Shown piece by piece: positions 32,177 to 38,532 of a stretch of 64,000 bases of DNA. A model generated the notes under the pieces. The model was not told where the DNA came from and ran no database searches. It worked only from the letters and a program-made list of their open reading frames with translations. The DNA is from Arthrobacter sp. ISL-5 (lineage in GTDB: Bacteria > Actinomycetota > Actinomycetes > Actinomycetales > Micrococcaceae). Every line of letters begins with the position of its first letter. Positions within the stretch are counted from its first letter, which is position 1. A program made the position numbers and the translations under genes. The DNA lies in the NCBI RefSeq assembly GCF_018613835.1, contig NZ_JAGGPM010000023.1:62001-126000 (forward strand), read 5' to 3'.

Positions 32177-32542
32177 GGGGATGATCGGTTTCGACGATGT
32201 TAGTCGCGACAGGTGAAGCGGGCCGAGGATGCAGAATTATCTCGTAAACGCTGTCTGCAAACCAATAAGTGCCGAATCTAAGCGCACTGACTTCGCTCTT
32301 GCTGCCTAAGCAGTAAGACAGTCCGTCAGCCCGAGGTTGCTATCGCCCCGGATCCTGGCGTCATTTAGATAGCCACTGCTGTTTGCCCCCGTCATCGGGG
32401 CAACCGGGACTCTTAGATGACTGGGCCCGGATCAGCCGCCTGTTTGCAGGACGGCTGGGGCCGAGAAACTCCGACGCAAACTGCGCCCGGAGAAGCCCTG
32501 ACAACACGACATCGGACGGGGGTTCAATTCCCCCCATCTCCA
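32177..32542 (+). ncRNA. ssrA: Transfer-messenger RNA (ssrA)
   Basis: The 5' end GGGGATG pairs with CATCTCC at 32535-32541 to form the acceptor stem. The T-arm GGGTTCAATTCCCCC is at 32519-32533. The tag reading frame is at 32271-32306 with stop TAA at 32307-32309. It reads A-E-S-K-R-T-D-F-A-L-A-A, ending in the degradation signal ALAA. The base after the discriminator A is C followed by GG, so the terminal CCA is not encoded and must be added. TATGAT at 32109-32114 is a possible -10. It works with the adjacent SmpB to rescue stalled ribosomes. Confidence 0.95.
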
Positions 32543-32558
32543 CGGTTACTACCAAGAG

Positions 32559-36126: not shown

Positions 36127-36885
36127 TCATGCCTTCGCTGCCCGCCATGTCTGGGTGAGGTAGGGCAGGAGCAGCAGCTCGCCGTCTGCATGTCCCAGGT
36201 GTTCGTGGAGGTACCAGTCGAGATTGCCGGTGACCTTGGCGCGGGTGGCTTCGTTGGCCCCGAGGTAGTAGCTGCGCGACTTGACCAGCTCGAGGATGTC
36301 GCCCGGGGTGACGGGATCTTCCCAGCGGGTCAGGTGGCCTTCCAGCCCCGTGAATTCCGGGCCTATCCGGGGGCGGAAGTCGGGCTTGTGGACATCCCCT
36401 GCGTGCATGATGCGGGAGAGCCGGTGGACCCATGGCACGGAGGTGTCCAGCTGGTTCCAGATCAGGCCGAGCACGCCGCGCGGTTTCAGGATCCGCGCGA
36501 TCTCGGCGCTGGCCAGCAGGGGATCGCACCAGTGCCACGCCTGCGCCACTGTGACGACGTCGAAGGCCGCGGCGGGCAGCCCGGTGTCCTCCGCGGTACC
36601 TTCCAGCGCCTCCACCATCGGGTAGGCGATGCGGAGCTGATCAAGCATGTCCGGCGAGGGGTCCACGGCGCTGACAGCGAGGCCGCGTTCCACGAGGAGA
36701 GCGGTGTACTTGCCGGTGCCGGCGCCCAGATCCGCGGCCGTGCCGGCGCCGGCGGGGATGAGCCAGCCCGCGGAATCAGCGGGGTAGCCGGGACGGACCC
36801 GGTGGTAGTGCTCGCCGCCGTCCTGGAAGCTTTCCCCGAGCTCCTGCCGCCGCCCGTGATCGAGTTTGGGACCACCCCGTGCCAC
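36127..36885 (-). CDS. Class I SAM-dependent methyltransferase
   Basis: 252 aa, GTG start with GGAGA upstream. The SAM-binding motif I ADLGAGTGKYTALLVERG lies at about residues 52-69, then VSAVDPSPDMLDQL (motif II) and FDVVTVAQAWHW (post-motif). The family is the Methyltransf_11-like group acting on small molecules. N-terminal SFQDGGEHYHRVRPGYP is common in this subgroup. The substrate cannot be told. It is transcribed toward the mntR-like gene. Confidence 0.86.
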   Translation of the reverse strand: MARGGPKLDHGRRQELGESFQDGGEHYHRVRPGYPADSAGWLIPAGAGTAADLGAGTGKYTALLVERGLAVSAVDPSPDMLDQLRIAYPMVEALEGTAEDTGLPAAAFDVVTVAQAWHWCDPLLASAEIARILKPRGVLGLIWNQLDTSVPWVHRLSRIMHAGDVHKPDFRPRIGPEFTGLEGHLTRWEDPVTPGDILELVKSRSYYLGANEATRAKVTGNLDWYLHEHLGHADGELLLLPYLTQTWRAAKA

Positions 36886-36961: not shown

Positions 36962-38371
36962 TCAGTCCTGGGCGCACGGGGCCGCACCAGCGGTGCCCGG
37001 CGTATTGGGCGCCCAGTCAGGGTAGGTGCGGGTGTCGTTGGCCGGAACCCAGCGTCCGGAATCCACCACGTAGTCCCAGCCGAGGCCGGTCCGGCGGAGC
37101 TCCTCGATGCCGGCCAGCAGGCGCTGGGCATCCTCGAGCCTGGAACCCACGCCGAAGCTTGCGCGCAGGGACCCGGACGGGAGGCCGAGGCGCTTGAGGA
37201 GCGGGTGGGCACAGAAGCGGCCGTCACGGAGTCCCACGCCGTGCTCGGCCGACAGATAGGCCGCCACCAGGCCGGCGTCGTAACCGGCCACGGAGAAGTT
37301 GACGACGCCGATCGTGTCCGTGTCCGGGTTGGTGTCGGAGAAAATCTGGTGGACGGTGACGCCGTCGATCCTCTGCAGCCCCTCGACGAGGAAGGACCGG
37401 ATGGCGGCCTCATGCGCGTGCCAGCGCTCCTGGTCCAGCGCCGCAACCACCTGGGTTGCCCGGGCGAGCGTGGCCGCGCCCAGGACGTTGGGGGAGCCGC
37501 CCTCATGGCGGGCGGGGCCGGTGGCCCAGCTGACGCCGTCGAGCCTGGCCTCGCTGACGGCGCCGCCGCCCGCGAGGTGGGGCGTGCCGGCGTCGAGCCA
37601 GTCCGGCCGCCCGATCAGCACGCCGGCGCCGAACGGCGCGTAGAGCTTGTGGCCCGAGAAGGCGAGGTAGTCGACGTCGTCCGCGGCGATGTTGATCCGG
37701 CGGTGCGGCGCGAGCTGCGCGGCATCCACAGCGATCCTGGCACCGAATTCGTGGGCCAGCGCGGCGAGGCGGCGGATGGGCAGGATTTCACCGGTGACGT
37801 TGGACGCGCCGGTGACGGCGAGGAGGCTGACGTCGCCGTGCTCCAGCTCGGCGCGCAGGGTTGCGATGGTGCCTTCAATCGTTTCAGAGGCCACGACGCT
37901 GCGGTGCGGCACGCCCTGCCACGGCAGCAGGTTGGCGTGGTGCTCGATGTCGAGGTACAGGACCTCGCCGGTGTGGTGGTGGTCCACCACGGGCAGGCAG
38001 CCGGCCAGCAGGTTCAGGGAATCGGTGGTGTTCCGGGTGAAGATCACCGAGTCATCCGCGCGGCCGCCGACGAATTCCCGGACGATGTTCCTGGCATTCT
38101 CGTAGACGGAGGTGCTGATCTGCGAGGCGTAGCCGGCGCCGCGGTGCACGCTGGCGTAGTAGGGCAGGATCTCGTTGAGATAGGCCGACACAACAGACAG
38201 CGCCGGTGCGGACGCTCCGTAGTCAAGGTTGGCGTAGCGGACGTGTCCGCCCTGGATCAGCGGCGCCTGGATCTCGGCGCCGGTGACCGCAGCCAGGGGA
38301 CGGCCGGCAGCGGCCACGCGGTCGTCAAGCAGTCCGGTGCCGGCGGTGGAAGGGAAGATTGCAGTCGTCAT
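36962..38371 (-). CDS. Class V PLP aminotransferase / cysteine desulfurase-like enzyme under SAM-riboswitch control
   Basis: 469 aa from ATG 38371. Fold-type I PLP enzyme: YANLDYGASAPAL near the N-terminus, HHANLLPW, AVDAAQLAPHRRI (Asp that holds the cofactor) and AFSGHKLYAPFGAG with the PLP lysine. The C-terminal domain includes RASFGVGSRLEDAQRLL. It resembles SufS/Csd-type desulfurases and related lyases; the catalytic Cys loop is not obvious. The leader carries a SAM-binding riboswitch, which points to a role in sulfur-amino-acid or methyl metabolism. It ends in a Pro/Ala-rich tail. Exact reaction unknown. Confidence 0.85.
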   Translation of the reverse strand: MTTAIFPSTAGTGLLDDRVAAAGRPLAAVTGAEIQAPLIQGGHVRYANLDYGASAPALSVVSAYLNEILPYYASVHRGAGYASQISTSVYENARNIVREFVGGRADDSVIFTRNTTDSLNLLAGCLPVVDHHHTGEVLYLDIEHHANLLPWQGVPHRSVVASETIEGTIATLRAELEHGDVSLLAVTGASNVTGEILPIRRLAALAHEFGARIAVDAAQLAPHRRINIAADDVDYLAFSGHKLYAPFGAGVLIGRPDWLDAGTPHLAGGGAVSEARLDGVSWATGPARHEGGSPNVLGAATLARATQVVAALDQERWHAHEAAIRSFLVEGLQRIDGVTVHQIFSDTNPDTDTIGVVNFSVAGYDAGLVAAYLSAEHGVGLRDGRFCAHPLLKRLGLPSGSLRASFGVGSRLEDAQRLLAGIEELRRTGLGWDYVVDSGRWVPANDTRTYPDWAPNTPGTAGAAPCAQD

Positions 38372-38404
38372 GGGACCTCGCTCTGAAAGGACCCCTTCTG
38401 ACGG

Positions 38405-38520
38405 GGATCCGCGCTTGCCGGGTCCGTTCCGGACCGGCCTGGTCGTCACCCGGGGCACCCCACCGCGAATGGAGGGTTGCCGGCCAGCAAACCGGGGTTT
38501 AGCGCTGGCACTCGTGACCT
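38405..38520 (-). ncRNA. SAM-binding riboswitch, SAM-IV-like
   Basis: On the minus strand the leader begins AGGTCACGAGTGCCAGCG, then CCCCGGTTTGCTGGCCGGCA, ACCCTCC, GGTGGGGTGCCCCGGGTGA and CGACC. These are the conserved pieces of the SAM-I/SAM-IV aptamers. GGTC at the 5' end pairs with GACC at 38441-38444 (P1). The downstream CGGCAAGCGCGG (about 38409-38420) resembles the extra pseudoknot region of SAM-IV, the actinobacterial form. TAGGCT at 38527-38532 is the probable -10. High SAM should lower expression of the aminotransferase gene. Confidence 0.8.
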
Positions 38521-38526
38521 GTTACG

Positions 38527-38532
38527 AGCCTA
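38527..38532 (-). promoter_or_regulatory. Predicted -10 element for the riboswitch transcript
   Basis: Minus-strand TAGGCT places the transcript start near 38519, the first base of the aptamer P1 stem. Confidence 0.5.

Follow-up and report, generated by a model that had tools for sequence, protein, structure and literature searches.

We identified a SAM-IV riboswitch aptamer directly before the gene of P0001, a SufS-like protein encoded on the minus strand of a 64,000-nucleotide stretch of Arthrobacter sp. ISL-5 DNA, which was analysed as a whole and is referred to here as the window. In the reading that we favour, to which we give a probability of roughly 0.55, SAM-IV represses a dedicated SufS-like cysteine desulfurase that feeds homocysteine (methionine) synthesis, and does so in the genus through a translational switch. 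When S-adenosylmethionine (SAM) is plentiful, SAM-IV would repress the P0001 gene; the enzyme would free the sulfur of cysteine for MetX and MetZ to build homocysteine, this sulfur probably passing via the rhodanese encoded before MetZ. The computed basis of this reading is the aptamer, its conserved link to the gene, the intact active site, the set of SAM-IV elements in the genome and the co-occurrence with MetZ; SAM binding, the direction of control, the substrate and the sulfur acceptor are what we infer. A SAM-repressed desulfurase for homocysteine would explain regulation, context and active site together, with acceptor and substrate as its weak points. If the reading is right, cysteine sulfur reaches methionine via a SAM-controlled desulfurase, which would explain the presence of a SAM riboswitch on a desulfurase gene. 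An actinobacterial desulfurase group that is distinct from the genome's SufS and reaches no cut-off among the NCBIfam models listed would also gain a role open to testing. The features at the locus are as follows (positions in the window).

38527–38532, minus strand: −10-like hexamer TAGGCT, 7 nt upstream of the aptamer
38406–38519, minus strand: SAM-IV aptamer (RF00634; 117 bits by cmscan)
38465–38470, minus strand: PK-2 strand AUUCGC in the P3 loop, complementary (with one G-U) to GCGGAU at 38412–38407
38407–38412, minus strand: PK-2 3′ strand GCGGAU, assigned from sequence, whose GGAU doubles as the first part of anti-sequestor arm A
38404–38410, minus strand: putative anti-sequestor arm A, GGAUCCC, predicted to pair with arm B
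38389–38395, minus strand: putative shared arm B, GGGGUCC, predicted partner of A in the ON state and of Shine-Dalgarno block C in the OFF state
38371–38379, minus strand: Shine-Dalgarno block C, GAGGUCCCA, which extends into the start codon and is predicted to pair with B
36962–38371, minus strand: P0001, predicted SufS-like type II cysteine desulfurase of 469 residues, with Cys387, Lys242, His144/His145 and a C-terminal extension containing Cys466
36127–36885, minus strand: SAM-dependent methyltransferase (Pfam PF08241), directly downstream of P0001
35382–36191, minus strand: MntR/DtxR-type metal regulator on the far side of the methyltransferase, present at 60 of 62 Micrococcaceae-like loci

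The aptamer is real and belongs to a known riboswitch type. A cmscan search matched Rfam SAM-IV (RF00634) at 38519–38406 on the minus strand (117 bits, E = 5.6e-21, gathering score 38), and the match is full length (model positions 1–116) with the stems of the model. The preliminary description of this DNA had proposed a SAM-IV-like riboswitch, a proposal that this Infernal-type check confirms at 117 versus 38 bits, and it had also placed the element correctly with respect to position, strand and target gene. Its further details hold as well: P1 is GGTC/GACC according to both the sequence and the covariance-model alignment, the pseudoknot-like downstream sequence contains a PK-2 strand (inside CGGCAAGCGCGG), and a −10-like hexamer, TAGGCT, is present at 38532–38527. 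PK-2 joins a loop strand with the aptamer 3′ end, according to the accessible text of a cryo-EM study (PMC6890682). Of 38 leaders from the window's family, 37 have a TANNNT motif that ends 7–8 nt upstream of the aptamer, against an expected background of about 1%. Between 38300 and 38700, a generic sigma-70 scan found no full or consensus promoter, and no terminator-like site was found in the same interval, which includes the gap between aptamer and gene. The only other above-cut-off Rfam match in the whole window is a tmRNA gene (32177–32545, plus strand, 155 bits). The aptamer shows no differences from the RF00634 model, and what we describe here from sequence is the expression platform of the genus.

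On the basis of predicted pairing and modelled folding, the genus leader is most likely a translational OFF switch. SAM binding would stabilise PK-2, which would take up the GCGGAU strand; with GCGGAU held in PK-2, the GGAUCCC/GGGGUCC hairpin would be broken, and the freed GGGGUCC would pair with GAGGUCCC to hide the ribosome site (OFF). Without SAM, the GGAUCCC/GGGGUCC hairpin would form and leave the ribosome site open (ON). In this proposed mechanism for a SAM-IV switch, the pseudoknot strand would itself be the switching strand. Across 34 distinct genus leaders (L039–L041, from other genera, were excluded and two identical genus leaders are represented once; L, G and f numbers denote loci, genomes and family codes, respectively), A can pair with B in 236 of 238 cells, arm B being the segment chosen for its best match to A, and B can pair with C in 210 of 238. 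The positions A5, B3 and C7 covary, reading C-G-C in 14 leaders, U-A-U in 15 and mixed combinations in the other five; these states track few lineages and thus represent few independent events.

Folding calculations, in which the model comprises a short segment and no aptamer or PK-2 energy, gave a mean Shine-Dalgarno opening energy that increased from 2.20 to 5.01 kcal/mol over the 34 leaders when the PK-2 strand was barred, versus a change from 4.15 to 3.85 kcal/mol for shuffled linkers under the same barring. The change was positive in all 34 leaders and at least 0.5 in 32. Among single leaders, 18 of the 34 had five or fewer of 100 shuffles matching the real change; the masked state alone was seldom unusual, and a large share of the contrast reflects a real free state that is more open than the shuffled ones. 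Three leaders (L015, L016 and L020) showed no rise in the pairing probability of the Shine-Dalgarno site.

Transcription attenuation could instead work the switch, with the translational pairing as a secondary effect. The accessible part of PMC8269248 describes a premature transcription unit at S. clavuligerus CRV15_21540, which encodes a class V PLP enzyme behind a SAM-IV leader, and premature ends in that leader, as far as this account goes, suggest that other lineages may use attenuation; Rho-dependent ends are conceivable here. Given that no terminator-like site was found between aptamer and gene in the window, and that the pairing and mean energies of the genus favour Shine-Dalgarno masking, we regard attenuation as the doubtful option for this leader.

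The translational switch would act on a gene whose start is likely to be the ATG at 38371, 4 nt behind GAGG, with the end at 36962; an alternative, longer open frame begins with a GTG at 38458, which is an unlikely start because it lies inside the aptamer. P0001 matches Pfam Aminotran_5 (PF00266), and this match together with the SufS-like alignment agrees with its earlier description as a class V, desulfurase-like PLP protein. It scores 270.8 bits against the SufS model TIGR01979, below the curated cut-off of 475.1, and is also under the CsdA cut-off; against the EgtE model TIGR04343 it reaches 48 bits (cut-off 400), and none of the 18 NCBIfam models listed for P0001 is above its own cut-off. 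The separate SufS of the same genome, encoded on another contig, scores 549.9 bits.

The preliminary description also stated that the protein has no clear catalytic Cys, which is wrong given the motif alignment and the conservation of Cys387: RDGRFCAHP in P0001 aligns on RxGHHCAxP, the Cys motif of solved desulfurase chains, and Cys387, the PLP lysine and both histidines of EHH each occur in all 98 aligned sequences (79 from the order, 18 named ones and that of the window), with the E of EHH varying in five. Its statement that the reaction is unknown leaned on the absent Cys and is undercut, as the Lys, EHH His and Cys of type II desulfurases are all there. By these sequence criteria (PLP Lys, EHH His and Cys), P0001 is a predicted type II cysteine desulfurase in the broad sense. 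The predicted structure (pLDDT 83.7) has a SufS-like fold, and the 50 PDB matches listed all carry the names of cysteine desulfurases or selenocysteine lyase/CsdB (TM 0.79–0.86, target length); among the matches listed, the closest solved relatives by both sequence and fold are cysteine desulfurases, SufS included. P0001 has the fold, PLP Lys, EHH histidines and catalytic Cys in common with SufS and CsdA, and is unlike them in falling below their cut-offs, in its G[RK]FCAH motif (97 of 98 aligned sequences, versus GHHCA in solved relatives) and in a C-terminal extension. This extension runs for about 40 residues past residue 427, the last residue matched in the solved-chain alignments, and includes Y434 (91/98), W441 (90/98), R448 (92/98) and the near-terminal Cys466 (67/98). 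The idea that the C-terminal Cys is tied to the rhodanese found no support: among the tails inspected, those of f14 and f17 lack this Cys, while the rhodanese is present in most genomes of these two families. In G030, a genome of the same genus, the gene matches in two pieces and is perhaps a broken or misassembled copy.

The position of SAM-IV upstream of the gene is conserved. We searched 297 genomes of the order, found the enzyme in 86 (E ≤ 1e-70) and fetched 80 loci (79 outside the genus and one genus locus), which were scanned with a covariance model that was built on 27 SAM-IV sequences, some from the scanned genomes, and whose computed structure omits P1. SAM-IV lies directly upstream on the same strand at 74 of these 80 loci by this model (71 counted by script and three, L138–L140, added manually, as their protein alignments ran over the aptamer). 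A search for the aptamer motif recovered only 64 of 80, and the model counts were therefore adopted. With seven genus genomes included by coordinates, SAM-IV is upstream in 80 of the 86 enzyme-bearing genomes; the remaining six are five f19 genomes and that of L134 (G169), a distant long-branch match, and Rfam searches of these six loci found no SAM-IV either. Within the genus, 29 loci were fetched besides the window's own and 19 were submitted to Rfam, all 19 of which have RF00634 upstream, as do all 18 of the named Nocardia, Rhodococcus, Prescottella, Gordonia, Frankia and Jiangella loci.

The window's genome contains three SAM-IV elements—before the P0001 gene, metX and rhodanese–metZ—a set that suggests homocysteine synthesis. 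The tie to sulfur/methyl metabolism made in the preliminary description was right and can be narrowed to homocysteine/methionine synthesis. SAM-IV also precedes an O-acetylhomoserine sulfhydrylase gene in M. avium, as described in the accessible portion of PMC3774663. In 20 rhodanese upstream regions fetched from other genomes, SAM-IV precedes rhodanese–metZ in nine, which are the nine of nine further window-family genomes with metZ, and SAM-I (S-box) does so in three (L284–L286; families f13 and f14). No SAM riboswitch was found in the other eight regions (three f17, three f15, one f7 and G204, a genome of the same genus in which, at the cut-offs used, both metZ and the desulfurase are missing). 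The occurrence of SAM-I and SAM-IV before one operon argues for SAM control of rhodanese–metZ itself. At 18 of 19 f8 loci, the fetched stretch shows rhodanese–metZ in divergent orientation to the desulfurase, and in all 13 f13 genomes the rhodanese is divergent from the desulfurase on the same contig, within about 2–11 kb; as f8 and f13 lie next to each other in the tree, this gene order may be one event. Neighbourhood clustering on raw open frames was set aside because it mixed real genes with antisense frames, and the rhodanese lead was redone with real proteins.

MetZ (searched with a 257-residue piece at E ≤ 1e-70, a cut-off chosen after a 24-genome trial) is present in 80 of 80 genomes with a SAM-IV desulfurase versus 55 of 217 others in the order, for which the Fisher values ignore relatedness and are not readable as probabilities. 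The rhodanese is present in 75 of the 80, the other five lacking it, versus 54 of the 217. Neither MetZ nor rhodanese was found, at the cut-offs used, in the f19 genomes that carry enzyme homologs without SAM-IV (L148–L152), in which the role of the enzyme may differ. Against a strict pathway stand the 55 genomes with MetZ and no SAM-IV desulfurase, as well as the MetY and MetB-type enzymes that the window's genome also encodes.

We tentatively propose a persulfide relay for the transfer of sulfur, in which P0001 would take sulfur from cysteine and pass it from Cys387 or the Cys466 tail to the rhodanese, and MetZ would make homocysteine, bypassing cystathionine. If this proposal is true, there is a further sulfur route to homocysteine besides free sulfide and thiocarboxylate carriers, and SAM-I and SAM-IV were recruited separately to relay genes. 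We saw no link between desulfurase, rhodanese and MetZ in the open-access literature searched. Wolinella synthesizes methionine with a protein thiocarboxylate, obtaining homocysteine from protein-bound sulfur. Both that system and the one proposed for P0001 would draw on protein-bound sulfur, the donor proposed here being a desulfurase–rhodanese persulfide. The protein-thiocarboxylate methionine pathway is named in the accessible text of PMC5764234. In Rhodococcus IGTS8 on dibenzothiophene, MetY increased and MetZ held steady, and two proteins of rhodanese type, one of which may be the metZ-linked rhodanese, decreased (PMC8557817, accessible part); as far as this source goes, the changes do not speak for rhodanese–MetZ as the starvation route there.

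Three other roles can be considered for the enzyme. P0001 could be a C–S lyase or desulfurase for organic sulfur that acts on the product of a flavin monooxygenase instead of supplying MetZ, and monooxygenases adjoining SAM-IV (at L129, L099 and the window's rhodanese–metZ) leave room for such a role. A second SAM-IV lies directly downstream of the desulfurase at L128 (6666–6775) and L129 (6748–6858), with luciferase-type monooxygenases behind it at both (genes read in L129 only); the L129 genes encode two NtaA/DmoA-like FMN monooxygenases, one above and one below the cut-off. L099 has a divergent monooxygenase gene with its own SAM-IV (best model TIGR04027, below cut-off), and an NtaA/DmoA gene is divergent from rhodanese–metZ in the window's genome; the difference between G[RK]FCAH and the GHHCA of solved relatives would also fit. 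However, the monooxygenases are known from the few loci read, whereas MetZ accompanies the SAM-IV desulfurase in 80 of 80 genomes, and we consider the organic sulfur role improbable. Still less probable is a second desulfurase for Fe-S clusters (a SufS/CsdA role) under SAM control, for example for radical-SAM or sulfite reductase enzymes. The closest solved relatives among the matches listed, SufS and other cysteine desulfurases, are compatible with it, but the genome has its own SufS on another contig (550 versus 271 bits, P0001 being under the SufS cut-off), the annotated neighbours are a methyltransferase, an MntR-type regulator and hisN, and the two further SAM-IV elements of the genome precede metX and rhodanese–metZ. 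A class V enzyme other than a desulfurase (an epimerase, aminotransferase or EgtE-like lyase) would suit the generic PF00266 match and is very unlikely in view of Cys387 in 98 of 98 sequences and an EgtE score of 48 bits against a cut-off of 400.

Streptomyces genes for a desulfurase or class V enzyme have already been published with SAM-IV in front of them, as the accessible parts of two accounts make clear: S. lividans SLIV_26975, a cysteine desulfurase with a SAM-IV leader, was placed under thiamine metabolism (PMC8079986), and the second case is the S. clavuligerus CRV15_21540 described above (PMC8269248). Both genes resemble that of P0001 in riboswitch class and gene kind, a likeness drawn from their descriptions, and the accessible text of the two accounts names neither MetZ nor the rhodanese. 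What this analysis adds is the group of desulfurases, the SAM-IV partners that go with it and the proposed three-strand switch, the aptamer itself being of a known class; that P0001 supplies sulfur for methionine is what we infer from the present analysis.

Downstream of P0001, the methyltransferase gene possibly shares its transcript. All 62 Micrococcaceae-like loci in the named set have this gene behind the desulfurase; of the 80 loci from the order, the four of the window's family were the only ones in which it was found. Two records titled Sporosarcina and Acidobacteria (L229 and L243) contain a Micrococcaceae gene block with a desulfurase that is 73% identical, and are likely to be mislabelled or mixed assemblies. 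In Nocardia carnea (L255, 2604–2693, minus strand), a SAM-I riboswitch adjoins the SAM-IV of the desulfurase and is divergent from it.
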